Source: Chloroflexota bacterium
GTDB taxonomy: Bacteria; Chloroflexota; Anaerolineae; UBA4142
Direction: 5' to 3'
DNA length: 64,000 nucleotides
Assembly: GCA_016219275.1 (NCBI GenBank)
Contig: JACRBM010000038.1
Coordinates: 1-64,000, forward strand
Translations under genes and position numbers: made by a program
Notes under the pieces: generated by a model
Databases searched by the model: none
Told to the model about the DNA's origin: nothing
The model's input: only the letters and a program-made list of their open reading frames with translations
Shown: one piece after another, positions 2-51,849 of the stretch
How positions within the stretch are numbered: position 1 is the stretch's first letter
Layout of the letters: every line of letters starts with the position of its first letter

Positions 2-295
2 GTGGGTGTGCATGATAGTTTCTTTGAGTTGGGCGGGCACTCGCTGCTTGCGACCCAGTTCGTCTCGCGCGTGCGCGACGAGTTTCGCATCGAGTTGCCT
101 TTGCGCGCTCTGTTCGAGAAACCCAGCATCGGTGAACTCGCGCCCGAAGTCGAGCGCTTACATTCTGAAAACAAATCCAGCGACTTGACGATCAAAATCG
201 TGCCACGCGAATCGCGCCGCGTCAAACTCTCCACCCTCACATCCGGCGGCAATGGATCGCATCAGCCGGATCAAACGACAAGGATAACGCAATGA
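2..295 (+). CDS. C-terminal end of an upstream NRPS (peptidyl carrier protein), 5' truncated by window edge
   Basis: This is the last 97 residues of a larger synthetase whose start lies left of the window. The opening residues carry the carrier-protein signature [13 protein letters not shown], in which the Ser accepts the phosphopantetheine arm. The helices that follow end at [11 protein letters not shown]. The last 45 or so residues are a low-complexity basic and Thr-rich tail with no recognisable domain. The stop codon overlaps the ATG of the next NRPS gene (ATGA), so the two are probably translationally coupled and form consecutive parts of one assembly line. No TE or E domain follows this PCP, so its intermediate should pass to the C domain of the next protein. 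The PCP assignment is secure. The amino acid it carries cannot be read here. Confidence 0.93.
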
Positions 296-35615: not shown

Positions 35616-37544
35616 CTATTCCCCATCCACCTCAGCCAGCGCGTTTGCGATCTGACTCAGGTCGTTTTGGTTGAGCGATGCGAGCGCGAAATCGGACGCG
35701 GTTACGCCGCTCGCGTTCGACGATTGGCAGTGTCGAATCAATTGCCGCAACGCGTCCGCGAATCGCGCGGCAAGTCGTGCGATCGTTTCCGCGCGATGCG
35801 CATTCTCGCTGAAGGTCCAGACCGCGTGAAACGCGCCGTCGCGAATGTAACTGTTAATCTCGATGAGATATTGGCGCGCGTCGTCGGGATGCCGCGCCTC
35901 GCCGACCGACTCGGCAACTGGCTCGAACAAGCCGCGCGCGTGTTGCGTTTCGTCCAAGCGTCCCAAATAGTTGAACACGATTTCAGGTTCGGGGAGCGCG
36001 GATAATTTTTCGCGCGTCTCGGCGTCGCGCGACAAGTAACGCAAGATGCCGTGTCCGATGCCGTGATTCGGAATCGCGCGCAGTTGCTCTTTGACGGCAA
36101 CGAGTGTTTGTCCCCAATCCGCGTGCGCTTCAACTTGCAACGCGACGGGAAACACCGTCGTGAACCAGCCAACCGTGCGCGAGACATCCACGCCCTCGAA
36201 GAGCGATTCGCGTCCGTGTCCTTCGAGCGCGAGCAAAACGGAATTCGCGTTCGTCCACTCTGCCAACACGCGCGCGAGCGCGGTCAACAACGCGTCGTTG
36301 ATCTGCGTGCGATATGCTGGCGGCACGTCGTGCATCAGCGCGCGCGTTTCTTCGGCATCGAGCGCGACCGTAACCGTTTGCGCCGAACGCACCGAGTTGT
36401 CCGCACGCGCGTCGAAATCGCGCGGCAGGGTTGCGCGTGTGCCGAATTTCGCATCGAGCCAGAACGCGCGCTCCTGGATCAGCGCCGGTGATTCCGCGTG
36501 CGCGGCTTGCTGTTCGCTCCACTGTTTGAACGAGGTCGTCTTGGGCGCAAGTTGCGCCTGGCGATAGATCGTTTCGAAATCTTGCAAAAGCACGCGCCAC
36601 GAAAGATTGTCCACGACCAGGTGATGGCAAACGATCAACAATTCGCTTGCGCCAATCTGCGCGAACCGAATCAGCGCGCCTGTTTCGAGATTCAGTGCGC
36701 GATGCAAACGCGTCGCGATTTTTTCGACCGGTTCATCGCGCGCGATTGGTTCGAACGGAATCTCCGCCAACATCCCCAAAAATTCCTGATGCCATTTTCC
36801 GTCGGCTTGCCAAAACCGCGCGCGCAGTGCATCGTGTTGTTTCAAAAGTTGCGCGACTGTTTCGCGCGCGCGGGCGGGATCGAGCGATTCGTTCGCGCGC
36901 AACAAGAAACCTTGATTCCACTGTTGCGGTCGCGTGAGATTGTGCTCGAAGAACCAATGCTGAATTGGGGTCAGCGGAACCGCGCCGATCACTAATGTTT
37001 GCTCGGCAGTTTGCTTTTGCGATGCGGTTGCAATCGCGGCGAGAGCGGCAATCGTCGGATGATCGAACACGTCGGTCGGCGTAAAGAAAATATCGGCGCG
37101 CCGCGCGCGCGCGACGATCTGAATACACACCAGCGAGTCGCCGCCGATTTCAAAAAAGTTGTCGTGAATGCCGACTATTTCGAGACCCAACACCTCGGAC
37201 CAAATCTGCGCCAACTGTTTCTCGATTTCGTTGCGCGGCTCGACGAGCGCGGCGGACGCATCGGCAGGTGTCGCCGCGACATCGGGCAACGCCTTGCGAT
37301 CCACTTTGCCGTTCGGCATGCGCGGCAACGCGTCGAGCGCGATGATGTGCGCGGGCAGCATGTAATTCGGCAGTCGCGCGCCGAGAAAATTTTTGAGGTC
37401 GCCCGCGTCTGCGCCGTTTTTGAACACGACGTACGCAACCAGTTGTTTGCTCGCGTTCGCGTTCGGCGTCGCGCCGAGTTTTTGCGCGAGGCGCGCGCGT
37501 TGTTGTTGCGACAGCGCGGCGAGTCGTTCGGACAATTGGCTCAT
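35616..37544 (-). CDS. Split NRPS: A-domain C-terminal part, PCP, epimerase
   Basis: 642 residues. The ATG at 37544 overlaps the methyltransferase stop (ATGA) and fits MSQLSERLAALSQQQRARLAQKLG, a short helical start. From about residue 33 the sequence KQLVAYVV...LPNYMLPAHIIALDALPRMPNGKVDRKALP is the A9-A10 subdomain of an adenylation domain, including the catalytic Lys80. Motifs A1-A8 are absent here but end the 38496-41264 gene. PCP has Ser137 in IGGDS. The epimerase (about 175-620) has HHLVVDN (H307, H308, D312), with Asn for the usual Gly, then LEGHGRE and RTVGWFTTVFP. It should deliver a D-residue to the C domain of the next gene. The long open frame upstream of 37544 is an overlap with the methyltransferase gene and not coding. 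Confidence 0.92.
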   Translation of the reverse strand: MSQLSERLAALSQQQRARLAQKLGATPNANASKQLVAYVVFKNGADAGDLKNFLGARLPNYMLPAHIIALDALPRMPNGKVDRKALPDVAATPADASAALVEPRNEIEKQLAQIWSEVLGLEIVGIHDNFFEIGGDSLVCIQIVARARRADIFFTPTDVFDHPTIAALAAIATASQKQTAEQTLVIGAVPLTPIQHWFFEHNLTRPQQWNQGFLLRANESLDPARARETVAQLLKQHDALRARFWQADGKWHQEFLGMLAEIPFEPIARDEPVEKIATRLHRALNLETGALIRFAQIGASELLIVCHHLVVDNLSWRVLLQDFETIYRQAQLAPKTTSFKQWSEQQAAHAESPALIQERAFWLDAKFGTRATLPRDFDARADNSVRSAQTVTVALDAEETRALMHDVPPAYRTQINDALLTALARVLAEWTNANSVLLALEGHGRESLFEGVDVSRTVGWFTTVFPVALQVEAHADWGQTLVAVKEQLRAIPNHGIGHGILRYLSRDAETREKLSALPEPEIVFNYLGRLDETQHARGLFEPVAESVGEARHPDDARQYLIEINSYIRDGAFHAVWTFSENAHRAETIARLAARFADALRQLIRHCQSSNASGVTASDFALASLNQNDLSQIANALAEVDGE

Positions 37545-38329
37545 TTGACCGCCTTGATGACGACCATCGAATCCGCCCACCACGTATCGCGCAGGTCGGG
37601 CGGCAGGGTCAGTTTGACGCGCGCGAGTTCGAACGCGCGAAAGTGATTCAAGACCAATCGCTGATGCGCGCGGCTGAACGAATCCATCTCGTTCGTCATA
37701 TACGTGAAAATTCCGCCGTCGCGCAAATGCGCGGATGCGGTTGGGAAGAATTGTTCGGCGAACGTCACGCTGTTCAACACCTGCTCGACGTACTCGGTTT
37801 CGTTCAACGGAAACGTGTGAAAAAAAATTCCGTCGTACATTCCAAATTGAGCCACCGTGTCTTGCCACTTGCCTTGAATCAAGCGAATGTCGCGTTCGGA
37901 AAATTTCGCACGCCATGCGTGAAACCGCGCGATGACCGAATCGTTGCACTCGACCACCGTGTGCGATGTGACGCCGCACGCTTGAATGTATTCTGCCGAC
38001 ACGCCGCGCCCGAACCCAATTTCCAGCACGTCGCCGTGCGTTTGCGTGGCGATCTGCGCCATCGCACGCATCAACGGAATTTGCCAGTCTTCCATGATTT
38101 CGTCATCGGCGAGCGGCGCGTTGCCGCGTTCTGCGATGTGAACGCTTTCCGCGCCGGGCACAAAGCGCGCGGCAAGTTGATCGAGTTGATTCAGGTCGTC
38201 GGCGAATTCCGCCATCGCCTTGTTCAACAGCCAATTGCGTTGCGACGCGCGCGGCGGCGCGATGAAATTTTCGTTCTTGAGGTCGAGCGTCAGTTCAAAA
38301 TTTTGCGTGCGTTTGAGTTTGCGAGTCAT
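37541..38329 (-). CDS. SAM-dependent methyltransferase, guanidinoacetate-methyltransferase-like, between split A-domain genes
   Basis: 262 residues. The ATG at 38329 (MTRKLKRTQNFEL) is chosen because the frame further upstream runs through a palindromic repeat. Class I Rossmann methyltransferase: motif I DVLEIGFGRGVSAEYIQA, then HTVVECNDSVIARF, GKWQDTV, YDGIFFHTFPLNE and LRDGGIFTYM. The spacing and the VLEIGFG/HTxxECND/YDGIxxxTxPL pattern match the guanidinoacetate/arginine N-methyltransferase group better than standard NRPS N-methyl domains. In ordinary synthetases a methyltransferase domain sits inside A between A8 and A9. Here a free gene occupies exactly that position, between the gene ending in A8 and the gene starting in A9. 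It probably methylates the residue activated by the split module. Backbone versus side-chain methylation is open. Confidence 0.82.
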   Translation of the reverse strand: MTRKLKRTQNFELTLDLKNENFIAPPRASQRNWLLNKAMAEFADDLNQLDQLAARFVPGAESVHIAERGNAPLADDEIMEDWQIPLMRAMAQIATQTHGDVLEIGFGRGVSAEYIQACGVTSHTVVECNDSVIARFHAWRAKFSERDIRLIQGKWQDTVAQFGMYDGIFFHTFPLNETEYVEQVLNSVTFAEQFFPTASAHLRDGGIFTYMTNEMDSFSRAHQRLVLNHFRAFELARVKLTLPPDLRDTWWADSMVVIKAVK

Positions 38330-38339
38330 AAGTTCAATT

Positions 38340-38454
38340 CTGTCAATGCGAGCGCCGTTTGCGAAGCAATCCCCCTCCCCAACCCTCCCCCGCGCGCGGG
38401 GGAGGGCAGGGTGGGGGCGGAGATTGCTTCGTCGCTTTGCTCCTCCCAATGACA
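38340..38454. repeat. Palindromic repeat element with GC-rich central hairpin (same family as 42446 and 59175)
   Basis: The outer arms (TGTCAATGCGAGCG...GCGAAGCAATC and inverse) match the elements at 42446-42525 and 59175-59247. The centre carries an extra perfect GC-rich hairpin (38383-38406) resembling that at 54074-54098. It separates the end of the C-A gene from the start of the methyltransferase gene. Confidence 0.85.
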
Positions 38455-38495
38455 TCTGAGCGGTTCAATTCGTGAAGATTCGCGTGCTTCGCGGA

Positions 38496-41264
38496 TTAAC
38501 CAAGTTGCTCGATCTCGTCGAGCAGTTGCCGCGCGCGCGCGTTGCCGCGCGCTTCGAGTTGCGCAAGCAGACCGTCGTCGGCATCGCGCGTGATGACGAC
38601 CGCGTCTTGCGCGCCGGCGTATTGCTTGATCGCCGCTTCGATCTCTTCGACTTCGATGCGATAACCGCGAATTTTCACTTGATGATCCACGCGACCCAGG
38701 AAATCAATGTTGCCGTCGGGACGATAACGCGCGAGGTCGCCGGTTTTGTAAAGGCGGGTTGGGGAATTGCTAAATGGGAATTGGTAAATGGTAAATTTCT
38801 CCGCCGTCAAATCTTCGCGATGCCAATATCCGGGCGCAACACCATCGCCGCCGATGTACAACTCGCCGGCAACGCCGAGGGGAACGGGGCGCAAATGTGT
38901 GTCGAGAATGTACGCTTGCATGTTCGGAATCGGACGCCCAATCGAAACCTGGGTCGCGTCCGGCGGAATCGCGCACGCGGTTGCCCACACCGTGCCTTCG
39001 GTCGGACCGTACTCGTTGTAGAGCGTCGCGCGCGGCAAACGCGCGTAATGTTTCTGAATCAACGCGGCAGGACAGGATTCGCCCGCGACGATTACGACGC
39101 GCAACGAATCGAGCGCGCCGGGTTCCGCGTACTCGAGCACGAGATGGTAGAGCGAGGGAAGCGCGAGCGTGTGCGTTACGCGCCAGCGCGCGATGAGATC
39201 GCCGACGTAATTCACATCCTTCTCGCCGTCTTGATCGGGCAGGCACAACGCGCCGCCTTGCGCCAACGCCCAAAAAATTCCGGCGACCGAACTATCGAAC
39301 GCGAACGACGAGAGGAGCAAATAGCGTTCCGCTTTTTCCGGATAAAACGCGAAACGCGCGAACGTCGAATGAACGAGATGGCGATGCGTGATCGGCACGC
39401 CTTTCGGTTTGCCGGTCGAGCCGGACGTGTAAATGATGTACGCGAGTGAATCGGAAGTCGCATCGTTGGATAGTTGGATAGTTGGATAGTTGGCAATGGA
39501 TTCCCAGTCTGCATCGAGGCAAACGATGCGCGCGGTTGTGTGCGGCAACGCGTCGCGCCATCGCCGTTGCGTCAGCACCACCGGCGCATGCGTGTCGGAC
39601 AGCATGAACGCGAGACGTTCCGCCGGGTACGATGGATCGAGCGGGACGTACGCGCCGCCGGCTTGAAGCACGCCGACGATGCCGACGATCATTTCGAGCG
39701 AACGCTCGACGCACAAGCCGACACACACGTTCGCGCCGACGCCTTGCGCGCGCAAGAAATTCGCGAGACGATTCGCGCGCGCGTCGAGTTCGGCGTACGT
39801 CAAACATTCGTCGCGATAAAACACCGCGGGCGCGTCCGGCGTTTGCGCCGCGTGTTGTTCGATCAGCGTGTGCATCAACGCGTCGCGCGGGTAATCGCAT
39901 CGCGCGTTGTTCCACTCGACGAGCATCGTATCCAGTTCCGCGCGCGTCAACATTTCGACCTCGCCCACGCGTTGTTGGGAATGCGCGAGCATATTCGCCA
40001 AAATCGTTTGCAGATGCGCGAGTAGTTGGTCAACGATTGCCGGCGCGAAACGCGCGCGATCCGCGATGAGGTACAACTGCATCGCCGCGCCCGGCACGAC
40101 GAGCAGCGCGAGCGGAAAGTTGCTCTGCTCGGCGTGTCGAATCGCGCCGAGGTGAATGTTGCACGTCGGCGGCGTGAGCGAACCTTCGGTCGGATAATTT
40201 TCAAAAACGACAATCGTATCGAACAGCGCGCGCTGCTGTTGCATCTCGCTCCATGCGCGAATTTTCGCGAGCGACGTGTGTTCGTACTCGCGCAGGGCGA
40301 CGTTGCGCGCTTGCAATTGTTCGAGCCACGCATCGAGCGGCATGGCGGCGTCCACCGCCACGCGCAAGGGCAGCGTGTTGATGAACATGCCGATCATTTT
40401 TTCCGCGCCGTCCAAATCGAACGGTCGCCCCGCCATCGTTACGCCGAACAGCACCTCGTCCGCGCCGCTGTAACGATTAAGCAGAATCGCCCACGCGGCT
40501 TGGATCAGCGTGTTCAACGTCACGCGATTCGATTGCGCGAACGTTTGCAGCGCCGCGCTCGTTTCGGCGGACAACGCGACGCGTGTTTGAATGTAGCCCG
40601 CTTCGCCCGTTGTGCGCGATTCGATTTCCAATTTCGTCGGCGCTTCCAAGCCGCGCAGTTCGGCGCGCCAAAATGATTCCGCGCGCGTGTGATCGCGTTG
40701 CGCGAGCCAACGAATGTAATCTTGAAACGGTCGCGGCGACTCGCGCGAAAATGTTTCGCCGCGACAAAGCGCGTCGTAACATGCCAACACCTCGCGCAGG
40801 ACGAGGTAGGTTGACCACCCGTCCATAATCAGATGTGAGTAACTCCAGACGAAGCGATGCGCGTGCGGCGCGGTGCGGATTAAACGCAAACGCATCAGCG
40901 GCGCACGCGTCAATTCAAATCCTTGCGCGCGATCCGCGCGCAAAATTTCCTCTAGCCGCGCGTCCTGTTCGGCTGGGTCGCGCGACGACCAATCCTCGAT
41001 CTGCCAATCCAGTTCGACGCGTTCGCGTACGATCTGCAACGGCTGATCGCGTTTCTCCCACGTGAACAAGGTTCGCAACGCAGCGTGCCGATTCGCGATC
41101 ATCTCCCACGCGCGCGTGAACGCGTCGCGATTCAGTTCGCCGTCAAGTTCGCAAATCAATTGCTGAACGTAGACGCCGCTGTTCGGCGATTGGATGACGT
41201 GAAACAGCATCCCTTCTTGCGTGGGCGTGAGTGGATAAATCGCTTGAATGTTTCCGGTGGTCAT
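38496..41264 (-). CDS. Split NRPS: C domain plus adenylation domain truncated after A8
   Basis: 922 residues, starting in ATGA overlap with the previous NRPS stop. C about 1-440 has YSHLIMDGW: the catalytic His144 and Asp148 are present, but the first His of HHxxxDG is Ser143. The IYPLTPTQEGM start is DCL-like, as expected after an epimerase. The A domain about 470-885 has YTSGSTG at 612 and D657 as the first pocket residue. The pocket reads D-S-A-L-I-A-E-V-W, an assignment I do not recognise. It ends soon after A8 (KIRGYRIEVEEIEAAI), with a helical tail (LLAQLEARGNARARQLLDEI) replacing A9-A10, which lie two genes downstream. The protein can adenylate only if the two parts assemble in trans. 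Just after the stop lies a fragment of the CCGCGAATC repeat. Confidence 0.92.
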   Translation of the reverse strand: MTTGNIQAIYPLTPTQEGMLFHVIQSPNSGVYVQQLICELDGELNRDAFTRAWEMIANRHAALRTLFTWEKRDQPLQIVRERVELDWQIEDWSSRDPAEQDARLEEILRADRAQGFELTRAPLMRLRLIRTAPHAHRFVWSYSHLIMDGWSTYLVLREVLACYDALCRGETFSRESPRPFQDYIRWLAQRDHTRAESFWRAELRGLEAPTKLEIESRTTGEAGYIQTRVALSAETSAALQTFAQSNRVTLNTLIQAAWAILLNRYSGADEVLFGVTMAGRPFDLDGAEKMIGMFINTLPLRVAVDAAMPLDAWLEQLQARNVALREYEHTSLAKIRAWSEMQQQRALFDTIVVFENYPTEGSLTPPTCNIHLGAIRHAEQSNFPLALLVVPGAAMQLYLIADRARFAPAIVDQLLAHLQTILANMLAHSQQRVGEVEMLTRAELDTMLVEWNNARCDYPRDALMHTLIEQHAAQTPDAPAVFYRDECLTYAELDARANRLANFLRAQGVGANVCVGLCVERSLEMIVGIVGVLQAGGAYVPLDPSYPAERLAFMLSDTHAPVVLTQRRWRDALPHTTARIVCLDADWESIANYPTIQLSNDATSDSLAYIIYTSGSTGKPKGVPITHRHLVHSTFARFAFYPEKAERYLLLSSFAFDSSVAGIFWALAQGGALCLPDQDGEKDVNYVGDLIARWRVTHTLALPSLYHLVLEYAEPGALDSLRVVIVAGESCPAALIQKHYARLPRATLYNEYGPTEGTVWATACAIPPDATQVSIGRPIPNMQAYILDTHLRPVPLGVAGELYIGGDGVAPGYWHREDLTAEKFTIYQFPFSNSPTRLYKTGDLARYRPDGNIDFLGRVDHQVKIRGYRIEVEEIEAAIKQYAGAQDAVVITRDADDGLLAQLEARGNARARQLLDEIEQLG

Positions 41265-44200
41265 GGTTCTGTAAACTCAGCGAGAATTTCGTCTAACTGG
41301 GTTTGGTTCAATCGCGCCTCTGGAAAATCAGAGGGCGTGAGCGCGCGCGCGTTTTCTGTGCCATCAATCAACGCGCACAAATGCGCGCGATAATTTTGCG
41401 CGAGTTGTTCAATCGTCGCGCGTTGGTGCAGACGCGCGCCGAACGTCCAGTCCACGCGCAACGCGTCGTCCGCGATGTGCGCGTTGACTTCGAGCGCGTA
41501 TGGTCTTTGCGCGCGCGGACTGCGCGCGAGTTGCAACGGTCCCGCCAACTGAAAGCGCGTTGAATCCGCGGCGACCGCGTCGAACTGTCCCAGATAGTTG
41601 AACAATACGTGCGGCGCGACGGCGAGCGCGGCATCGTTTGCGAGATAACGCAAAACGCCGTAATCGAGTCCGTGATTCGGCAGCGCGCGCAGAGTTTCTT
41701 TGATCTGCTTGAGCGTCTCGACGCGCTGGGCGCGCGCGGTCAAATTGACCGGGAAGATCGCGGTGAACCAGCCGACCGTACGCGATAGGTCCACCTCGGC
41801 GAACAAATCCTCGCGTCCGTGTCCTTCGAGCGTGATCGTGTGCGCGGCGCGTCCCGTCCAATCGGACAAGGTGTGCGCGAGCGCGGTGAGGAGCAGATCG
41901 TTGATCTGCGCGTTGAACCGCGCGGCGACCTCGCGCATCAATCGCCGCGTGTCGTCCACGTCGAGCGCGATCGAGATTGTCGCCGCGTGCGCTTGCGCGT
42001 TGTCGCCGCGCGCATCGAACGGAATTTCGATGGACGCGTCCTGGGTTTGCGTCAGCCAAGCATTGCGATGGACGCGTGCGCCGGCGTACTCGCTCAATTT
42101 TTCCGACCACTGCTTGAACGACGTCGTCTTGGGCGGCAACGCGACCGCGCGATGTTCTTCGAGTTGATCGCACGCGGTTTCCAAATCCTTGAGCAAGACC
42201 CACCACGCCACGCCATCCACCGCGAGATGATGCGCGGCGATCACCAAGCGCGGCGGATGCGCGTCACCGCGATTGACCCACAACGCGCGCAACATCCTGC
42301 CGCGTTCGAAATCCAAACTCGTTTGCAACTTGTCCGCCGCGCGTGCGAGTTCGGTTTCTTGCGCCGAGTCACGCAGATGCGACAGGTCAATTTCATCGAG
42401 AACATCTTGCTGCGCGTCTAGGGCTTTGGGTAAGTCGCGCCCGTCTGTCATTGCGAGCGGTTTTTGCGAAGCAATCTCCAAGTTGCTTGGGGACTGCTTC
42501 GCTCCGCTCGCAGTGACATTCGGACTTGGACCAAGCCCTAGCGCGCCTGCTTCGAGTGTTTGCCGCCAGCCGTTTTCGTCGCGCGTGAATCGCGAACGCA
42601 ACGCGTCGTGATGCGCGAGCAAATGGCGCAACGCGTTCGCGAGCAGCGCGGGATCGGTGCGCTTGGTGATATCGAGTTGCAGAGTTTGATTCCAGTGATG
42701 CGCGTCCGCGAAATTCTGTTCGAAGAACCAATGTTGAATCGGCGTGAGCGGCGCATCGCCGGTAACGACGCCTTGCTCCGCGCGCGCGCGCGTCTGCGCG
42801 ACCGCGACGCTCGCCAACTCGGCAATCGTTTGATGCTGAAACAATTGACTCGGCGTGAGTTTCAAGCCGACTTGATTCGCGCGCGCGATCGTTTGGATGT
42901 TCAGAATCGAATCGCCGCCGAGTTCGAAAAAGTTGTCGTGGATGCCGACGCGTTCGATTCGCAACACCTTGCGCCAAATTTCGGCGAGCAATTTTTCGGT
43001 CGGCGTGCGCGGCGCGACGAACGTCGCCGACAGTTCGGGACGCGATTCGCCGGGACGCGGCAATGCCTGACGATCCACTTTGCCGTTCGGCGTCAGCGGC
43101 AGTTTGTCGAGTCGAATGAAATGCGCGGGAAGCATAAAGGCAGGCAACTGTTGTGCGAGATGCGCGCGCAGTTCCGCCGGCGTGAGCGGCTTGTCCGAAA
43201 CGAAATATGCCGCGAGCCGATTCGTCTCCGCGTCCTGCGCCGGTTCGACGTAGCCGATTTCGTTCAGGATGCGCTGGACGCGCGCCGCGTCAATGTCGTC
43301 GTCGAGTTCTTGTAGCGCGGCGTCGCGCGTTTTGTGTCCCAGTCGCACGTCCCAACTGTACGGCAACGCGTAATTGTGAAAGCCGCGCTGTTTCTTGTGA
43401 AGGTAAATGCCGACTTCGTTGATGAGACAATTCGTCGAGCGACCCGTGTCCGCCGGACGAATCCAGGGCGCGTGTTCCGTCAAGAACGCGTACACCTCGG
43501 CAAGCGACACGTCGCAGTAGCGATAAAAATCAACGAACTGGATGTTGTCGAAGAGCGCGTCGTCGCGAAAGACATCCACGTCGAGTTTGTGCGAGATCAC
43601 ATCGTCGCGGCGATGGTACGCCTTGCGCGCCGCGATCACGGCTTGGTCAAGCGCGGCGGGATCGAAATCGGGCGCGAGGAAAACGTCCTCGGTCAAGCGC
43701 GTTTCGAAAAATTGCCCGCGCGACAAGCCGGTCACGATGTAGCGGATGTTTTGCTCGCGCGCGAGATTGACCGCGAGCGTGTAAATCGTTTTGAAACAAC
43801 CGTTGCAGACGTTCGCATACTGCTTCAAACTGTCCGCAAAAATCGCGTTCATGTGCGGCGTGGTTCCGAAAACGTGATCCACGCCGAGCGCCTGCACGAC
43901 GCGCACGATATTCGCTTTCGCGGATTCGGAGATGTAGCCGTTGTCGAGCGAAAAGACGAGCGGCGTGAGACCCAGCTCGACGAGGCGATACAGCATGTAC
44001 GTGCTGTCCTTGCCGCCGCTCAACAACGCGATGCAATCGTACTTGCCGGCGCGCGCGGCGCGCATCTGCGCGACGATGGCGCGCAGATCGTCCATCGTCT
44101 TGAAATATCGTTGCGCCTTGTCTTTGTACGTGTCGAACGCGCGGCAAAAATTGCACACGCCGTTCGCGTCGTAACTCGCGCCGGGAAAATTCGACGCGAG

Positions 44201-46945
44201 TCCGCAGCGCGCGCAAAAGAAAACGTCTTGTGTAACGCGCGCGGGTTTGACCACATCCACCACGCACTCACGCACGTCGGAATGCGCGAGCAAGCGCGCT
44301 TCGATCTCGCCGAGTTCGATACGCGCGCCGCCAACTTTGACTTGATGATCCGCGCGACCCAGGAATTCGAGTTGACCGCCGGCAAGCCACCGCGCGAGGT
44401 CGCCGGTTTTGTAAAGGCGCAATTGGGAATTGGGAATCGGGAATCGGGAATTGAGGAATCGTTCCGCCGTCAGGTCATCGCGACCGAAATATCCGCGCGC
44501 CAGTCCGTCGCCTGCGATGTACATTTCGCCGATGACGCCGGTGGGCGTGGGATTGAGATGTTGATCGAGAACGTAAATTTGCGCGTTGTCGGCGGGCTTG
44601 CCAATCGGCACGGACAGCGCGCGGTCGCGTTCCGCATCGAAGCGATGAATCATGCAACCGACGGTCGCTTCGGTCGGACCGTACTCGTTGTAGATTTCGA
44701 TTGGCTTATCAAACGCGCGCGTGATCGCGCGGGCGAGTTCGGTTTTGAAATCTTCGCCGCCGACGATGAGCGCGCGGACGCGCGACGCGCGCAGATCAGA
44801 ATCGCGAATCAGTGCGAGGTGCGCGGGCGTGAGTTTGATAATATCCACCGCGTTGTCCGCAATCACTTTTAGAATCGCCGTCCCGCGCGCGTCGGGATCG
44901 TCGCGATAGACGACGAGGCGTCCGCCGGAAATCAACGGCGTGAAAATGGAGGTTACCGTGAGATCGAACGACAACGATGAAAAGAGTGGAAATGCGAGCC
45001 GCTCGCCTTGCGTGTACACCCTTTTTGCCCACCAAATATAATTCGTCAACGCGCGATGTTCGATCATCACGCCTTTGGGTTTGCCGGTCGAGCCGGAAGT
45101 GTAAATCACATAAGCAAGCGAATCGGAATTAATTGGTGATTGGGAATTGGTGATTGGACGCGCTGCGTGGAGATCGAGAAACTCGGTGTCCAAACACAAG
45201 ACGGTTCCATCGAATTCGAGAACGCGATTCTTGAGATGCGATTGCGTCAACACCATGGGCGCGCGGGTGTCGGCGAGAATTAGCGCGAGGCGTTCTGGCG
45301 GGTACGCCGGATCAACCGGGACGTACGCGCCGCCCGCTTTGAGGACGCCGAGAATCGCGACGACGACCTCGCTGGAATGTGCCATGTAAATCACGACGCG
45401 TTGCTCTGGCGCAATGCCGCGCCCGCGCAAGTGATGCGCGAGTTGGTTCGCGCGCGCGTTCAGTTCCGCGTACGTCAAGCGCGCGCCTTCAAACTCGATC
45501 GCGATGTCGTCCGGGTTTTGCGCGGCTTGTTGCTCGAACAGCGCGACGACGGTTTGCTCCGCCGGGTACGGCGTCGCGGTGCGATTGTATGCGACGACGA
45601 GCGCCTGATGTTCGGCGTCGCTCTGCAAACTGATCGCGTTGAGCACGCGCGCGCGGTCGGCAAGGAACGCGTCCACGACGCGCAAGAATTGTTGAATCGT
45701 CCACGCGCGTTGCGCTTCGTCGAACACGCTCGCGTTCAAATCAAAGTGCAATGTGAAATTGCCGGTCGCGCCGAAATCGTGGACTTGCAAACGCAAACTG
45801 TGATTGCTGTCGCCGTAACCGGCATGAATCCACTCGACCTGTGGCGTCATTCCCGCAAAATCGGGAAACGCGACGTTGACATAGTTGAGCAAAATCTCGT
45901 ACGCGCGATTGCGCTCCGCGCTACTCACGCCGGGTTGCGCGTATCGCAACGCGTTCAACACCTCGCGCGAAACTTTTTTGTGGAGCGATGCAAACGTATC
46001 GTCGTCCGCGACCTCGAACGTGAGCGGACAAATTTCGATGAACACGCCGACCGTGTCCTTGTGCGCCGCCGTCGCGCGATTGTGGAACGGCACGCCAATC
46101 GTCAAGCGCGCATTGCCGCTGACGCGATGGAGATACGCACTCATCAGCGTCGCAAAGATCGCGTAGAGCGACAGGTCTTGGCTCAACAGGCGCATCCCCG
46201 GCGCGTTCGCGAGCGCGCGCAGTTGCGCGGAGCGTTCCGCACCCAAATCCAACGCAACGCGTTCGGTGCGCGCGCCGCGTGAGGCGGGAACGCGATTGAA
46301 AAATTCGATCGGTTGCGACGCGGGCGTTTGCGCGCGCCAGTACGCGTCCGCCTGCGCGAATTGCGGCGTCGCGCGAAACGCGCGTTCGTAATCGGCGTAC
46401 TCGCGGAACGTCGGACGCGCGGGCAGATCGCGTAGATCGTTTTGCAACGCGCGCGCGTACAACTCCGCCATTCGTTTGTACACGACGACGAACGACCAGC
46501 CGTCGGTGATGAGGTGATGTTGATTGAGATACCAGACGAATCGCGCGGGCGCGAGTTGGACAAGGCACGATTCGAACAGACGCGCACGCAGATCACAGAC
46601 GCGCGCGCGCCGCGCGTCGAGCCATTCTGCAAACGCGGCTGGGGGATCGTCCGCGCGCGAAAGATCAATCCACTCGACCGCGTAATCGAGTTGCGGCAAG
46701 ACGCGTTGCTGCGGCGCGCCGTCGAGCTCGACGACGACGGTGCGGAGCGCGTCGCTCTGATTGATCAACGCCTGGAACGCGCGTTGAAACGCGGCGCGGT
46801 CAATCGCACCGTCGAACGCGAACGCCTGAATCATATTGTAGAGCGGCGCGTCGGGATCGAGTTTTTGCCCCAGCCAAATGAGAAACTGGGTGTTGGTGAG
46901 ATTCGAACGTTCGCGCAGCGTGTTATCGGAAATCGGCAATGCCAC
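41261..46945 (-). CDS. NRPS C-A[PP-loop ATPase]-PCP-E of locus B (Asn code)
   Basis: 1894 residues. C about 15-450 with HHLITDG (H143, H144, D148) begins NLTNTQFLIWLGQKLD, an initiation-type C domain. It probably accepts the pyrrolyl group from the free PCP upstream. A about 470-1300 has YTSGSTG at 615 and D661. The pocket reads D-L-T-K-I-G-E-V-G, an Asn code identical to that of the 292-8802 A2 domain. Between A8 and A9 about 340 residues of a Cys-rich PP-loop ATPase are inserted (listed separately). A10 ([15 protein letters not shown]) follows. PCP has Ser1346 in LGGDS. The epimerase about 1385-1880 has HHLAVDG (1572-1578). It contains an in-frame palindromic repeat (residues about 1474-1500). 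It ends in ATGA overlap with the next NRPS gene. Confidence 0.94.
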   Translation of the reverse strand: MALPISDNTLRERSNLTNTQFLIWLGQKLDPDAPLYNMIQAFAFDGAIDRAAFQRAFQALINQSDALRTVVVELDGAPQQRVLPQLDYAVEWIDLSRADDPPAAFAEWLDARRARVCDLRARLFESCLVQLAPARFVWYLNQHHLITDGWSFVVVYKRMAELYARALQNDLRDLPARPTFREYADYERAFRATPQFAQADAYWRAQTPASQPIEFFNRVPASRGARTERVALDLGAERSAQLRALANAPGMRLLSQDLSLYAIFATLMSAYLHRVSGNARLTIGVPFHNRATAAHKDTVGVFIEICPLTFEVADDDTFASLHKKVSREVLNALRYAQPGVSSAERNRAYEILLNYVNVAFPDFAGMTPQVEWIHAGYGDSNHSLRLQVHDFGATGNFTLHFDLNASVFDEAQRAWTIQQFLRVVDAFLADRARVLNAISLQSDAEHQALVVAYNRTATPYPAEQTVVALFEQQAAQNPDDIAIEFEGARLTYAELNARANQLAHHLRGRGIAPEQRVVIYMAHSSEVVVAILGVLKAGGAYVPVDPAYPPERLALILADTRAPMVLTQSHLKNRVLEFDGTVLCLDTEFLDLHAARPITNSQSPINSDSLAYVIYTSGSTGKPKGVMIEHRALTNYIWWAKRVYTQGERLAFPLFSSLSFDLTVTSIFTPLISGGRLVVYRDDPDARGTAILKVIADNAVDIIKLTPAHLALIRDSDLRASRVRALIVGGEDFKTELARAITRAFDKPIEIYNEYGPTEATVGCMIHRFDAERDRALSVPIGKPADNAQIYVLDQHLNPTPTGVIGEMYIAGDGLARGYFGRDDLTAERFLNSRFPIPNSQLRLYKTGDLARWLAGGQLEFLGRADHQVKVGGARIELGEIEARLLAHSDVRECVVDVVKPARVTQDVFFCARCGLASNFPGASYDANGVCNFCRAFDTYKDKAQRYFKTMDDLRAIVAQMRAARAGKYDCIALLSGGKDSTYMLYRLVELGLTPLVFSLDNGYISESAKANIVRVVQALGVDHVFGTTPHMNAIFADSLKQYANVCNGCFKTIYTLAVNLAREQNIRYIVTGLSRGQFFETRLTEDVFLAPDFDPAALDQAVIAARKAYHRRDDVISHKLDVDVFRDDALFDNIQFVDFYRYCDVSLAEVYAFLTEHAPWIRPADTGRSTNCLINEVGIYLHKKQRGFHNYALPYSWDVRLGHKTRDAALQELDDDIDAARVQRILNEIGYVEPAQDAETNRLAAYFVSDKPLTPAELRAHLAQQLPAFMLPAHFIRLDKLPLTPNGKVDRQALPRPGESRPELSATFVAPRTPTEKLLAEIWRKVLRIERVGIHDNFFELGGDSILNIQTIARANQVGLKLTPSQLFQHQTIAELASVAVAQTRARAEQGVVTGDAPLTPIQHWFFEQNFADAHHWNQTLQLDITKRTDPALLANALRHLLAHHDALRSRFTRDENGWRQTLEAGALGLGPSPNVTASGAKQSPSNLEIASQKPLAMTDGRDLPKALDAQQDVLDEIDLSHLRDSAQETELARAADKLQTSLDFERGRMLRALWVNRGDAHPPRLVIAAHHLAVDGVAWWVLLKDLETACDQLEEHRAVALPPKTTSFKQWSEKLSEYAGARVHRNAWLTQTQDASIEIPFDARGDNAQAHAATISIALDVDDTRRLMREVAARFNAQINDLLLTALAHTLSDWTGRAAHTITLEGHGREDLFAEVDLSRTVGWFTAIFPVNLTARAQRVETLKQIKETLRALPNHGLDYGVLRYLANDAALAVAPHVLFNYLGQFDAVAADSTRFQLAGPLQLARSPRAQRPYALEVNAHIADDALRVDWTFGARLHQRATIEQLAQNYRAHLCALIDGTENARALTPSDFPEARLNQTQLDEILAEFTEP
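42446..42525 (-). repeat. Palindromic repeat inserted in frame in the NRPS epimerase domain
   Basis: An 80-bp imperfect palindrome (TGTCATTGCGAGCG...CGCTCGCAGTGACA) on the coding strand. It encodes SPNVTASGAKQSPSNLEIAS, a peptide repeated almost exactly in the LuxR-type regulator at 59175-59247. It lies in a loop of the epimerase after RFTRDENGWRQTLEA, where such domains normally continue directly to a DLS segment. Confidence 0.92.
43225..44250 (-). other. PP-loop (AANH-type) ATPase domain embedded in an adenylation domain
   Basis: Sub-region of the NRPS at 41261-46945, residues about 900-1240. It starts with a four-Cys knuckle (C911, C914, C931, C934 in CARCG and CNFCR). The PP-loop follows, ALLSGGKDST (S976-T982), with Lys979 and Asp980. 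A third CxxC (C1047, C1050 in CNGCF) comes next, then IRYIVTGLSRGQFFETRL and a conserved-looking C-terminal stretch (RPADTGRSTNCLINEVG...NYALPYSWDVRLGHK). PP-loop ATPases adenylate a carbonyl oxygen for attack by N or S, as in GMP synthetase, TtcA, and sugar amidotransferases of the WbpG type. Chemistry on the bound Asn is inferred. The insertion site is the A8-A9 hinge. Confidence 0.85.
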
Positions 46946-47039: not shown

Positions 47040-47312
47040 CTACGTTTCCATTCGCTTGCTCAAATACTCTGCCATCGCGTCGAGCGTTTGGAAATTTTCA
47101 ATCACGACATCCTCGGGTGGAATCGTCGTTTTGAATTCCGTTTCGATGAACGCGATCATCCGCACCGCGCCGAGCGAATCCACCAGCCCGCTCAGCAACA
47201 GATCGTCGTCGTCGCGCAATTCGATGGCGCGTCCCAGCAACAACTCGCCGAGGATGAATTGGCGCAAAGATTCTTTTACGTCCATTTGAAAGATAGTCTG
47301 GGTCATCATCAT
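47040..47312 (-). CDS. Free peptidyl carrier protein of the pyrrole starter cassette
   Basis: 90 residues. Small acidic four-helix carrier with the phosphopantetheine site GLVDSLG (Ser46), the form seen in PltL-type carriers that hold proline during its oxidation to pyrrole-2-carboxylate. The start is set by ATGA overlap with the upstream membrane protein stop. The next gene, the elongation NRPS, starts 94 bp further on and lacks its own loading module, so this PCP is its likely donor. Confidence 0.9.
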   Translation of the reverse strand: MMMTQTIFQMDVKESLRQFILGELLLGRAIELRDDDDLLLSGLVDSLGAVRMIAFIETEFKTTIPPEDVVIENFQTLDAMAEYLSKRMET

Positions 47313-48052
47313 GTCGGGGATTGCTCCAGGGATTTTGGATTTTCAATTTTGGATTTGCGATTTGCGATTGATAATCTAGCTTTGACGGCGATGAAACCTG
47401 TGATCTGCATCGCGACGGCAATCGCGACAAGGACAATCAACGGCGCGCGCAACAGCGCATCGCGTTGCTCGATGGTCTGATAAAGCAAAGCATGAGTAAC
47501 GATGAACGCGAACGCGAGATAACTCGTCCGTTGAAGCCACTTCCAGCGCCGCGTGCCGAGTCGTCGCAAGGCGATGTTGTTCGAAATGACCAGTAGCATC
47601 GCGAGAATGCCTGCCTGCGCGAGCGCGATGTAATTCGCCAACCCGAACAGATTCGCTTGAATCGGAAAGGGATTGTGCGCGTTGGGCAAATGCTGAATCC
47701 AGTACCACCAAATGCGCCAACCGCCCGGCGCGTGCACGGTTACGGCGAACGCGATGTGCGCGAACGCGATGCTCGCCGCCCAGATGCCGACATCGCGGCG
47801 CAACATATAATTCGCGGGAGGCGCGCGATGGCGCAGAACGTACAGCGGACCGAGCGCGAACGTCGCGACGATGAACGTCAGCGCGGTGTACGCGAACGCG
47901 AGACTCAAACGCCAATTGAGCCAATCGGCTTTGCGACCCGAGCCGTCTTCCCACTGCTCCGGCGAAAAACCGAGCGCGCTAAAAATCGTCGCGATGCTGA
48001 TTGCGGCGATGAGCGCGAGGATGAGATGGCGGTTACGTCGTTTCGTGTCCAT
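47309..48052 (-). CDS. Ferric-reductase-like transmembrane (heme b) protein in the pyrrole cassette
   Basis: 247 residues from the ATG at 48052, which overlaps the end of the adenylation gene by 20 bp. The longer frame to 48178 lies inside that gene. Six hydrophobic segments are present. His residues in IAFAHIAFAVTVHAPGGW and LAFAFIVTHALLYQ are placed as in the ferric reductase-like/YedZ (MsrQ) transmembrane family, which carries b-type heme. There is no flavin or NADPH domain. Its location between the prolyl-AMP ligase and its PCP suggests a role with the flavin-dependent prolyl dehydrogenase, perhaps electron removal to the membrane. That is inference; pyrrole cassettes I know of do not require such a protein. 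Confidence 0.78.
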   Translation of the reverse strand: MDTKRRNRHLILALIAAISIATIFSALGFSPEQWEDGSGRKADWLNWRLSLAFAYTALTFIVATFALGPLYVLRHRAPPANYMLRRDVGIWAASIAFAHIAFAVTVHAPGGWRIWWYWIQHLPNAHNPFPIQANLFGLANYIALAQAGILAMLLVISNNIALRRLGTRRWKWLQRTSYLAFAFIVTHALLYQTIEQRDALLRAPLIVLVAIAVAMQITGFIAVKARLSIANRKSKIENPKSLEQSPT

Positions 48053-49613
48053 TGTTTTCAATCGCCTGTTCGCGCAACGCGCGGCGATCAATTTTGCCGG
48101 TGCCCGTCCGCGGGAAATCGTCCAGCACCAAAATTTTGTGCGGCACCGCGTAGGGCGGGACGCGTTGCGCGAGATCATTTCGCAAATCGGGAATGGGCGT
48201 CTCTTTTTTTAGAATGACGGCGGCTTCCACCCACTGACTCCCCTCGCCATCCGGCACCGCGTACACCGCGCACTCGCCGACCGCCGCGTTCAGCGAAAGC
48301 GCGTTCTCCACTTCGTCGAGTTCGACGCGATAGCCGCGCGTTTTGATTTGCCGATCCTTGCGTCCGCAAAAACGAAGCAAGCCATCTGCGTCCACGCGCA
48401 TCAAATCGCCGGTGCGATAGAAAACGTCGTCGTACTGCTCGAACACTTGCCGCCGATAAAACGCGCGCGCGTTCAAATCGGGACGCCCCCAATAACCGCG
48501 CATCATCGTCGGCGTGCGGACGACCAACTCGCCGATGTCGCCGGCGCGCGCGGGCTGATCGTTTTCGTCGAGCAGGATTCCTTCCGAGTTGTCCCACACG
48601 CGCCCGATCGGAATGGATTCGGCGTAATCGTCCGCGAGTTGCGGGACGTGATAGTACGTGCATTGATTCACTTCGGCGGGACCGTACACGTTGCTCACGC
48701 GCGCGCGCGGAATCAGGCGCATCAACTCGCGCAGATGCTTGGGCGGAAACGGCTCACCGCCGTACAGAATCCAGCGCAGGGATGAAACGTCGCGGCTCGG
48801 CAGAACGCCGCGCAAAACGAGTTGCACGAGCGCGGTCGTCACCGAGTACCAAATCGTCAGGCGTTCGTCTTCGATCAACTTGGACATGCTCGCCGGAAAT
48901 TTCGTCGTCGGTTCGGGAATGATGACGGTCGTCGCGCCGCAAAGTGGACCCGTGAAGTAGTCGAACGTGGACATATCGAAATGCAACGGCGAGTGATTGC
49001 TGAGTCGGTCGGTATGCGTCACGCCGTACAAATCCGCCGAGAGTCGCGCGTACGCCAAGCCGCTCGCGTGCGTGTGCATCAATCCCTTGGGTGTGCCGGT
49101 TGACCCAGACGTGTACATCACGTACGCCAAATCTTGTTCGGTCAACAAAATATCCGGCGCGGGAACAGCGCGCCCGTCGAGCGCGTCCCAGGGTACGCCT
49201 CGCGCACGCACATCCTCGCGCGGCGCGACGCCGATCACACATTCGAGCGGGCTGTTCATCGCGATGTCGCGCAACGCATCCACCTTGTTTTCCTGTGAAA
49301 CGATGTGGCGAATCGCGCAATCGTTGACGACAAAATTCAAACGCGCGACCGGCGCAAGCGGATCGAGCGGCACGTATGCCGCGCCGGCTTTCCAGATGCC
49401 GTAAATCGCGATGGGCGTTTCGATGCCCTTGCGTAAATAAATCCCGACGCGGTCGCCGCGACGCACACCTTGTTCGACCAGCACACGCGCGAGCGCGTTC
49501 GCCCGGCGATGCCATTCGCCGTACGTCAGCGTTTGTCCGGCGAAACGCATCGCCGGATGATCGGGATACCGTTGCGCGGATTCGTCGAGAATGTGCGAGA
49601 GTAAGTAAATCAT
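48033..49613 (-). CDS. Stand-alone adenylation enzyme, L-prolyl-AMP ligase (PltF/RedM-like)
   Basis: 526 residues from the ATG at 49613 (MIYLLSHILDESAQRYPDHPA). An open frame further upstream overlaps the dehydrogenase gene and is not used. A complete A domain: YTSGSTG at 167, LHFDMSTFDYFTGPL with Asp213, TIWYSVTTALVQLVLRG, YGGEPFPPKHL, NVYGPAEVNQCTYYHVP and GYRVELDEVE, ending DDFPRTGTGKIDRRALR with the A10 Lys. The FDMSTFDYF...IWYSV pattern is characteristic of proline-activating ligases that load a free PCP in pyrrole pathways. Dehydrogenase, PCP and ornithine cyclodeaminase genes are all adjacent. Confidence 0.93.
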   Translation of the reverse strand: MIYLLSHILDESAQRYPDHPAMRFAGQTLTYGEWHRRANALARVLVEQGVRRGDRVGIYLRKGIETPIAIYGIWKAGAAYVPLDPLAPVARLNFVVNDCAIRHIVSQENKVDALRDIAMNSPLECVIGVAPREDVRARGVPWDALDGRAVPAPDILLTEQDLAYVMYTSGSTGTPKGLMHTHASGLAYARLSADLYGVTHTDRLSNHSPLHFDMSTFDYFTGPLCGATTVIIPEPTTKFPASMSKLIEDERLTIWYSVTTALVQLVLRGVLPSRDVSSLRWILYGGEPFPPKHLRELMRLIPRARVSNVYGPAEVNQCTYYHVPQLADDYAESIPIGRVWDNSEGILLDENDQPARAGDIGELVVRTPTMMRGYWGRPDLNARAFYRRQVFEQYDDVFYRTGDLMRVDADGLLRFCGRKDRQIKTRGYRVELDEVENALSLNAAVGECAVYAVPDGEGSQWVEAAVILKKETPIPDLRNDLAQRVPPYAVPHKILVLDDFPRTGTGKIDRRALREQAIENNGHETT

Positions 49614-49645
49614 TTGAATCCCGTAAGGCAAATTTGAAATTTGCC

Positions 49646-50791
49646 TTACAATCCCAGCAAGCGCGCGATAATGTTGCGCTGAATGTCCGATGTGCCGCCG
49701 TAAATCGGTCCGCCCAACGCGTCGCGCAGATCGCGCTCGATTTCGAATTCGGTCACGTACCCGCGCGCGCCGTGAATGCGCGCCGCGTCGAGCGACGATT
49801 GCGCGAAACTTTCGCCGACGAATAGATTCGCAAGCGCGGCGTCGAGCATCGCGGACTGATTCGTTTGTTTGAGCCACGCGGCTTTGTACGTCAGCAGGCG
49901 CGCGGTTTCGAGCCGCAATTTCATTTCCGCGACGCGATTCGAAATCGCTTGAAATTTTCCGATGGGTTGACCGAACGCGTGCCGTGCGCGCGCGAAGCGA
50001 ATGCACGCGTCGAGTTGACGTTCCATCGCGCCGATCTCGCTCGCGAGAATGCACGCGCGTTCCCACTCTTGCGACGAGTTGAACATGCTCGCGCCCGCGC
50101 CTTCGGGACCCAAACGATTTTCCGTCGGGACGAAACAATCTTTCAGCGTGAGTTTGCCCATCGGCACGGTGCGCAAACCCATCTTGTCCATCACCGCGCT
50201 CGTCTCAAATCCGCGCGTGCCGCGTTCGACAAAAAAAATGCTGATGCCCCAGTTGCCGCGTTGCGGATTCGTCGTCGCAAAGATCAACGCGAGATCGGCG
50301 AGCGGCGCAAAAGTGATGAAGGTTTTTTCGCCGTTCAACAAATAGCCGTCCTCGCGTTTCGTCGCCGTCGTGGCAAGCGCGAACGCGTCGGAACCGGTTG
50401 CGGGTTCGGTCATGCCGTAGCACGCGATCATTTCGCCCTTGCACAAGCGCGGTACGTACCGTTCCTTTTGCGCCGCGCTCGCAAAGCCGGTGATCGTCGG
50501 CAGGATGCTCGTCAATTGCGCGCTGATCGCAAAGGTCAAGCCGTTGTCGCGGCACGCGTACCCCAGCGCTTCGAGCGCGAGCGTTGTCGAGAGCGCGTCT
50601 TTGCCTTGCCCGCCGTACTCGCGCGGCGCGTTCAATCCGAGCAAGCCAAACTCGCCGCACTTGCGCCAATGCTCGCGCGAAAAAATTCCCTGCTTGTCGC
50701 GCGCGATCAGATCGCCGCCGAGTTCGCGTTGCGCGAATTCGATGATCGCGTGACGGAGTTCGCGTTGTTCGTCGGTGAGAGAGAAATCCAT
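49646..50791 (-). CDS. Acyl-CoA-dehydrogenase-like flavoprotein, prolyl-S-PCP dehydrogenase (PltE/RedW-like)
   Basis: 381 residues from the ATG at 50791 (MDFSLTDEQRELRHAIIEFAQ). Full-length ACAD: YGMTEPATGSDAFAL and GEKTFITFAPLADLAL in the beta domain, RQLDACIRFARARHAFGQPIGKFQAI, and IYGGTSDIQRNIIARLLG at the end. The Glu usually found in IYEGTSEIQ is Gly here. Glu244 in EWERA lies where isovaleryl-CoA- and prolyl-dehydrogenases carry the base. The expected reaction is FAD-dependent four-electron oxidation of prolyl-S-PCP to pyrrole-2-carboxyl-S-PCP. It starts 2 bp after the ornithine cyclodeaminase stop and ends 32 bp before the ligase start. Confidence 0.9.
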   Translation of the reverse strand: MDFSLTDEQRELRHAIIEFAQRELGGDLIARDKQGIFSREHWRKCGEFGLLGLNAPREYGGQGKDALSTTLALEALGYACRDNGLTFAISAQLTSILPTITGFASAAQKERYVPRLCKGEMIACYGMTEPATGSDAFALATTATKREDGYLLNGEKTFITFAPLADLALIFATTNPQRGNWGISIFFVERGTRGFETSAVMDKMGLRTVPMGKLTLKDCFVPTENRLGPEGAGASMFNSSQEWERACILASEIGAMERQLDACIRFARARHAFGQPIGKFQAISNRVAEMKLRLETARLLTYKAAWLKQTNQSAMLDAALANLFVGESFAQSSLDAARIHGARGYVTEFEIERDLRDALGGPIYGGTSDIQRNIIARLLGL

Positions 50792-50793
50792 CG

Positions 50794-51849
50794 CTATGCT
50801 TCGTGTCCGTTCCGCACCGCGCGGTACGGGTCGCGCGGATCGGACGAGATGCTTTCGATTTCGAGCCGCGTGCCGACGTTCATGTCGCGCGCGTAATCGC
50901 TGAACAGTTCGAGCGCGACCATATCTTCGAGCGCCCAACCGGTCGAATCGAACACGGTGGTCTTGCCGCGCAGATGCGCGTATTTTTCCGGATGCTTCAC
51001 CACTTCCACCAGCATGGGACCGATATCCTCGCGCGCGAGTTGTTGGCATTCGCCTTCGCACATCGCTTGCTCCGTAAAATCGGGGCAGACAAAACTCCGT
51101 TTGAGCAGATCGAGCGGGATTTCGACTTTACCGGCGAAATCGGAGCCGATGGCGTTGACGTGCAGCCCCGGTTTGACGTTCACGTTCCGAAAAACCGGAC
51201 CCTTGCCGGGGTCAATGGAGGTGCACGTGCACAGCACATCGGCGGAGGTAACCAAATAGTCGAGTGAATCTTTGCCGATGAGCGCGATATCCAAATTCAA
51301 AAAGCAAGTTCGGTCGGGAAACGTTTTGCTGACGAGCGGATTGACGTCGTACACGATCACGCCTTCAATGTCCATCACGCGCGAGAGCGCGTGGAGTTGC
51401 GTAACCGCTTGTGCGCCCGCGCCGATGATGCCGACGACGTTGCTGCGCTCGGACGCAAGGGCGCGTGTCGCGATGGCGGATGCCGCGCCGGTACGCAGCG
51501 CGGTCAACAGCGTACCGTCGGCGACGGCGAGCCAATGCCCGGTGTGTGTGTCGTACGCGCTGATGTTGGAAATGATCGTCGGCAGGTTTCGCCGCGTCGG
51601 GTTTGTCGGATGATAGCCGACGACCTTGATCGTGATTTTATCGTTCGCCATCACCGGCATCCATTCGAGCAAGCCGGGATTGGGCGATGTGTATTGAAAA
51701 CCGGAACGCGCGGGAATCTGGGTCGTCGCGGGATCGTATTGTTCGAACGCGCGTGTGAGCCGCTGGATCATTTCGTCCATCAGCGCGTTGAGACCGACGC
51801 GCGCGACGATTTGGCGCACGGTGTCTTTGGAAAGAATCAATGTGTCCAT
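50794..51849 (-). CDS. Ornithine cyclodeaminase family protein (probable L-Orn to L-Pro supply)
   Basis: 351 residues. Ornithine cyclodeaminase/mu-crystallin fold: KVVGYHPTNPTRRNLPT, ADGTLLTALRTGAASAIATRAL, the NAD-binding GIIGAGAQAVTQL, NAIGSDFAGKVEIP with Asp237 at the place of the catalytic Asp, and DSTGWALEDMVAL. The family also contains pyrroline carboxylate and ketimine reductases. Here the neighbouring prolyl ligase and dehydrogenase make conversion of ornithine to proline with loss of ammonia the best explanation. It is the first gene of the minus-strand operon. The 276 bp upstream (51850-52125) show no gene, and I could not define a promoter there. Confidence 0.86.
   Translation of the reverse strand: MDTLILSKDTVRQIVARVGLNALMDEMIQRLTRAFEQYDPATTQIPARSGFQYTSPNPGLLEWMPVMANDKITIKVVGYHPTNPTRRNLPTIISNISAYDTHTGHWLAVADGTLLTALRTGAASAIATRALASERSNVVGIIGAGAQAVTQLHALSRVMDIEGVIVYDVNPLVSKTFPDRTCFLNLDIALIGKDSLDYLVTSADVLCTCTSIDPGKGPVFRNVNVKPGLHVNAIGSDFAGKVEIPLDLLKRSFVCPDFTEQAMCEGECQQLAREDIGPMLVEVVKHPEKYAHLRGKTTVFDSTGWALEDMVALELFSDYARDMNVGTRLEIESISSDPRDPYRAVRNGHEA

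Follow-up and report, generated by a model that had tools for sequence, protein, structure and literature searches.

A locus of a Chloroflexota bacterium (Anaerolineae; assembly GCA_016219275.1, contig JACRBM010000038.1, positions 1–64,000, the whole of which is referred to here as the window) raises the question of what a PP-loop ATPase does when it is built into an adenylation (A) domain of a nonribosomal peptide synthetase (NRPS). The open reading frame (ORF) concerned, 41261–46945 on the minus strand, encodes an elongation module of 1894 residues, for which translation and matches to Pfam and NCBIfam give the arrangement condensation (C)–A–peptidyl carrier protein (PCP)–epimerization (E), and its A domain, of the asparagine type, is interrupted by a full-length PP-loop (AANH) domain. 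We consider it probable that this insert is of the amide dehydratase/aminomutase (AMDH) type, acting in cis within the Asn-loading module to make β-cyanoalanine. Among the conceivable products we favour dehydration to β-cyanoalanine over a thioamide, and a thioamide over isomerisation, with amidination a distant fourth.

Pfam assigns to the ORF a condensation domain, an AMP-binding domain (residues 470–820), an AMP-binding_C domain (1240–1289), and a PCP, whereas the extension on its C-terminal side is recognised in NCBIfam as E-type (TIGR01720, a C/E-type domain). The large subdomain of the A domain, from the AMP-binding match through motif A8, is encoded at 44300–45559 and the C-terminal subdomain, carrying motifs A9 and A10, at 43061–43228 (both minus strand). 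The insert, about 342 residues long and encoded at about 43214–44239 (minus strand), lies between motif A8 (residues 869–882) and motif A9 (LPAFMLP, residues 1267–1273), with the domain proper at about 905–1240; the insertion point is thus the A8–A9 hinge, and the A motifs on either side, including A10 (NGKVD), are intact. On the same strand the insert has an N-terminal CxxC...CxxC knuckle (44144–44215), read by motif as the tetracysteine zinc motif of a family resembling the N-acetyl sugar amidotransferases (NASATs), of which CARC (44204–44215) is the first half and CNFC (44144–44155) the second. This is followed by an intact PP-loop, SGGKDS (44003–44020, within SGGKDST), assigned as the ATP site by motif and alignment, by CNGC (43796–43807), and by STNC (43427–43438). 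The NCBIfam profile of the NASATs, TIGR03573, matches the insert over profile positions 3–328 of 344 (E 3.7e-39) with a score of 135 bits, below its curated cut-off of 203 bits. Since an equal insert is found in the equal place in other genomes, at identities of 70, 70, 67, and 50%, about 60%, and 62%, it is neither a chance feature nor an assembly artefact.

The first-pass annotation, made from the nucleotide sequence, had described the insert as a member of the N-type ATP-PPase/AANH class placed at the hinge of an Asn-type A domain. That description stands in all its parts: the class is supported by the TIGR03573 match and by the predicted fold, the placement by the positions of A8 and A9, and the substrate by the signature DLTKIGEVGK, while SGGKDST, the CxxC/CxxC knuckle, CNGC, and STNC are all present and intact in the window copy. 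The role proposed there, activation of a carbonyl, also seems right as the likely one. The statement that an AANH domain in cis within an A domain is new does not hold, as AlbIV of the albicidin pathway and CysH of the cystobactamid pathway are published examples of Asn-activating A domains with a 342-residue AANH insert (PMC8949500, PMC7966384, PMC12283262).

Specificity codes of A domains are read at positions anchored to those of PheA. Anchored by motifs in this way, the signature of the window A domain is D-L-T-K-I-G-E-V-G(-K), and DLTKIGEVGK is listed both for Asn and for the β-cyanoalanine module of albicidin (PMC12283262). Specificity for Asp or Glu was considered and set aside, as the signature is listed for Asn and CysH rejects both acids. 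Embedded domains that have an intact ATP motif, together with a readable A domain, reside in Asn-type modules in the window and in loci L025–L028, L106, L139, L142, L146, and L188. The exceptions are L140 and L141, with a signature of the type DAQD-IG-V-VD (Gln or Glu), whose reading as Gln is uncertain because DAQDLGVVDK is listed for Glu and Gln alike; CysH itself also loads Gln (PMC7966384). A third group of signatures, D-P-W-(M/L)-(I/V)-G-T-I-N, goes with retained cysteines and an ATP motif that has decayed, in most members to SGGRGA. The occurrence of the readable intact copies in Asn-type modules, plus two of the Gln/Glu type, points to the side-chain amide as the target. A peptide bond is not the common factor, since the module of L028 (3175–7758), with the arrangement formyltransferase–A[AANH]–PCP, has no upstream acyl partner; it is an initiation module, and the residue that it supplies is probably an N-formylated, modified Asn.

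The features that define the published AMDH domains recur in the window, where an AANH insert with SGGKD, of about 342 residues and 38 kDa, resides in an Asn-specific A domain. In AlbIV, the module that activates Asn has a 342-residue extension, AANH-like and containing SGGKD (PMC8949500), and the 38-kDa insert of CysH, for which the name AMDH was introduced, is 69% identical to that of AlbIV (PMC7966384). Asn bound to the carrier of CysH loses 18 Da in vitro, although not on CysH without AMDH, corresponding to dehydration to β-cyanoalanine, and deletions in the cystobactamid cluster indicated that AMDH can also isomerise Asn (PMC7966384). The likeness of these descriptions to the window insert strongly suggests that it belongs with the inserts of AlbIV and CysH. 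In the corresponding mechanism, the A domain would adenylate L-Asn and load it on the adjacent PCP, after which the insert, with ATP bound at SGGKDST, would activate the side-chain amide oxygen of the Asn on the carrier, the most likely intermediate being an O-adenylate. Departure of AMP and the loss of water would then yield the nitrile of β-cyanoalanine. Condensation of the modified residue with the upstream acyl group, probably pyrrole-2-carbonyl, would follow, and the E domain would invert its configuration before the chain moves on.

Three cysteines other than those of the knuckle deserve closer comparison. An alignment of 62 sequences shows no variation, in insert numbering, at C9, C12, C29, C32, the PP-loop, C145, C148, or C271; its rows were picked from the relatives that carry the cysteines, which number 75 among the loci retained after the scan. 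C145 and C148 belong to CNGC and C271 to STNC. In an unselected table, NASATs keep the first four cysteines and the PP-loop, whereas equivalents of C145, C148, and C271 are all absent. Both kinds are present on one Roseovarius plasmid (L106), in which a true NASAT without the triad lies beside hisF and hisH (1953–5301) and the embedded AANH copy is found separately. In turn, CtaC, the AANH enzyme of closthioamide biosynthesis, shares the triad. Locus L165 could be identified as CtaC, since D77, S78, C154, C157, and C284 all match the published numbering, and the neighbours read from the sequence agree. The insert profile finds this protein at E 5.5e-31 despite an identity of 19%, and in the profile alignment its C154, C157, and C284 fall on C145, C148, and C271 of the insert, while the Asp and Ser of its PP-loop (D77 and S78) are matched as well. 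In CtaC, mutation of any of these three cysteines diminished activity, and D77 and S78 are essential (PMC6772006). The alignment with CtaC, a comparison of the kind suggested in the first-pass annotation, thus places the PP-loop Asp/Ser and three cysteines in shared columns. Loss of the ATP-binding residues, which would have told against the first-pass reading, is not seen in the window copy, although a sister clade has lost them (SGGRGA).

An independent profile–profile alignment places the CxxC of the insert on the CxxC of TtuA-like proteins. For the third cysteine, hhalign to TtuA-like proteins, forced to full length, gave no alignment of C271, for which support comes from CtaC only. The [4Fe-4S] ligands of NcsA (Cys142, Cys145, and Cys233) have the same layout of CxxC plus C (PMC10067955). 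We propose, by alignment, that C145, C148, and C271 may be the three ligands of a [4Fe-4S] cluster close to the ATP site, of the kind present in CtaC, TtuA, and NcsA. Purified CysH is dark brown, with no Fe-S motif or metal site recognised in it (PMC7966384), and the triad is a candidate site for the unexplained metal of the CysH type.

An AlphaFold2 model of the insert, calculated with 62 relatives as input, is confident (pLDDT 89.5, pTM 0.89) and has the fold of the AANH superfamily, as the first-pass annotation had anticipated. The closest fold in the Protein Data Bank is that of LpNASAT (8WEX), with Z of 20.5 over 306 residues. Next are LarE, Fe-S LarE, NcsA, TtuA, NAD and GMP synthetases, and the nitrile synthetase ArtA, which can hardly be separated from each other since all have Z of about 12–14. 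The superfamily is clear from the predicted fold, but the reaction is not.

In a scan of 84,980 genomes, copies of the interrupted A domain turned up in three Anaerolineae metagenome-assembled genomes (MAGs; 70, 70, and 67% identity) and in one beta-proteobacterial MAG (50%), together loci L025–L028. Two copies at about 60% are present in Rhodobacterales plasmid records; that of Roseovarius is annotated as an NRPS, and the other record shows no gene at that place. An embedded copy at 62% identity comes from a gammaproteobacterial MAG. About ten further embedded copies came from a profile search of the class reached through L045, and one is in a Clostridia genome, taken to be that of Ruminiclostridium cellulolyticum. 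A relative on a Streptomyces plasmid (37.5%) lies outside any A domain, the domain being fused to a condensation-like fragment with a separate A–PCP protein, asnB, and a racemase gene as neighbours. A search of 400 Chloroflexota genomes with the insert found no additional embedded copy, and stand-alone relatives at about 31% only.

In a 78-row tree, a quick search in which some branches, that of CtaC among them, are long, 16 embedded domains form a single clade (SH-aLRT 100), separate from CtaC, from the trans-acting relatives beside NRPS genes, from a large stand-alone family, and from the NASATs. A sister group of embedded domains has no ATP motif, with SGGRGA in L143, L144, L145, and L163 and ACERVA in L147, although the cysteine triad is kept. 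At L172, an embedded AANH domain without the ATP motif is part of an NRPS that also has radical-SAM and B12-binding domains. The stand-alone family, which includes most of L029–L099, is spread over many phyla, has the cysteine triad and the motifs YGWSPGQ and STNCLLN, and shows no close relation to sugar amidotransferases.

Several known systems invite other assignments. The first-pass annotation had offered a thioamide, an amidine, or an amide as possible products, and a nitrile was not among them. A thioamide would be formed if the insert were an in-cis synthetase of the CtaC type, a [4Fe-4S] AANH enzyme that puts sulfur in place of oxygen on the carrier, either in the side-chain amide of Asn or in the acyl-Asn amide. 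The profile match to CtaC and the column-for-column agreement with its three essential cysteines favour this assignment, as do the alignment with the TtuA-like CxxC and the presence of LarE, with and without [4Fe-4S], NcsA, and TtuA among the folds nearest after LpNASAT. CtaC likewise acts on a carrier-bound substrate and shares the N-terminal CxxC/CxxC; however, it is a stand-alone protein on a long branch elsewhere in the tree, 19% identical to the insert, while the embedded domains form a single group, and the published relative of the present architecture dehydrates Asn. Similarly, TtuA, NcsA, and Fe-S LarE share the AANH core and the aligned CxxC, with CxxC plus C as the ligand layout in NcsA, but their substrates are tRNA or a nucleotide cofactor and the similarity is remote. 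Because a CtaC-type triad is present, the thioamide part of the earlier proposal retains some probability, although a rather low one. An amidine is quite improbable. It would require the insert to form amidines as the NASATs (WbpG/PseA) do, with ammonia supplied by a HisH/HisF-like pair, and both the closest named profile and the closest fold are indeed those of the NASATs. WbpG, WbuX, and LpNASAT resemble the insert in the whole fold, the tetracysteine zinc knuckle, and the PP-loop; LpNASAT has a zinc site at the tetracysteine motif, which together with the PP-loop defines the family (PMC10607449). Nevertheless, the insert scores below the TIGR03573 cut-off, lies outside the NASAT clade, and has the triad that NASATs lack. 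In the genome of the window and in those of L025–L028, searches for HisF/HisA gave no matches beyond the two neighbouring his genes; the one GATase match in the window genome is beside its his pair, and no second HisH/HisF was found. The amidine is thus disfavoured by the position outside the NASAT clade and by the histidine-pathway HisF/HisA being the only pair in the genome. Literature searches for A domains with a NASAT, amidotransferase, or thioamide insert found none; A domains interrupted by a methyltransferase, oxidase, or ketoreductase have another enzyme inserted at the same A8–A9 point (PMC8949500, PMC11355689).

Isomerisation of carrier-bound Asn, or β-hydroxy-Asn, to isoasparagine would be the second activity of the AMDH of CysH, to which the deletion experiments in the cystobactamid cluster ascribe it (PMC7966384). 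We regard it as unlikely here, as neither a CysJ-like hydroxylase nor a CysB-like shuttle was recognised among the cluster genes examined, several of which have no Pfam match, and no albicidin with isoAsn is known (PMC7966384). It is very doubtful that the insert is catalytically dead and retained for structure; such a loss has a parallel in the SGGRGA members of the sister clade, but the window copy retains SGGKDST and every family-invariant residue. Dehydration to β-cyanoalanine by an AMDH-type insert stays the preferred reading, with the following points against it. The homology with the AlbIV and CysH inserts, their cysteines included, is derived from descriptions rather than from sequences. 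The AlbIV and CysH modules are stand-alone A–T modules loading in trans, whereas that of the window is in line (C–A–PCP–E), with a probable pyrrole starter. The triad also occurs in a thioamide synthetase, which makes a thioamide a conceivable product. Finally, a prediction of the whole A–insert unit (855 residues, 5 sequences) reached a pLDDT of only 44 and was not used. The architecture as such is already known, and it is the in-line rather than stand-alone module that sets the window case apart.

The genes that flank the interrupted module, from the ornithine cyclodeaminase gene to the terminal module, are on the minus strand. Pyrrole-2-carbonyl starters arise by dehydrogenation of prolyl residues bound to a carrier protein. 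Upstream are a stand-alone PCP (47043–47342, PF00550, E 2e-8); a stand-alone A domain (48033–50138, PF00501, E 1.6e-86), the frame of which is open upstream of the likely start; an enzyme resembling acyl-CoA dehydrogenases (49646–51061), conserved in relatives and by context of the prolyl-PCP dehydrogenase type; and a member of the ornithine cyclodeaminase family (50794–51849, PF02423, E 9e-59), probably supplying proline. This set suggests that the starter unit is probably pyrrole-2-carbonyl. Downstream, Pfam matches show the C domain and the N-terminal part of the A domain of the next module (38496–41264), ending at the A8–A9 hinge; the C-terminal part of that A domain follows with a PCP and an E domain (35616–37979, Pfam and NCBIfam), and a terminal module comprises C, PCP, and a thioesterase (33134–35563, Pfam). 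The next A domain (35616–41264) is thus split at the hinge into separate ORFs, with a conserved methyltransferase gene (37541–38455, weak matches to PF13489/PF13649) between the halves. The split is shared by L025 and L026, whereas the counterpart in L188 is whole. Most cluster genes have homologues in L025–L027 and part of them also on the Roseovarius plasmid. The Chloroflexota clusters and those on the Rhodobacterales plasmids come with a gene resembling HupE/UreJ metal permeases (window 31553–32155; also L026, L027, and L106), a possible sign that the product binds metal. Elsewhere in the window, two stretches matching the PilZ domain (PF07238, E 5.9e-15) lie at about 3043–3790 of the other NRPS (292–8802), within the C-terminal part of its first A domain, and cyclic-di-GMP could by this means control that assembly line.

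What the present analysis adds to the published examples is one well-supported embedded clade spread over several phyla and an invariant triad in the columns of CtaC. Interrupted A domains of this type span Chloroflexota, Pseudomonadota (on plasmids as well), a Clostridia genome, and a further class, and a plasmid of Streptomyces adds a trans relative. With its Gln/Glu-type modules and a sister group without the ATP site, the family has a wider range than its published description conveys. The mechanism of AMDH was left open by the authors of the CysH study, and the triad brings to that question a specific candidate site and a specific candidate cofactor. We can speculate, tentatively, that the embedded clade is a three-cysteine [4Fe-4S] AANH family, and that its member in the window makes thio-asparagine, or a nitrile via a sulfur-containing intermediate. 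If this is true, the nitrile- and thioamide-forming enzymes of NRPS assembly lines would be variants of one Fe-S mechanism.
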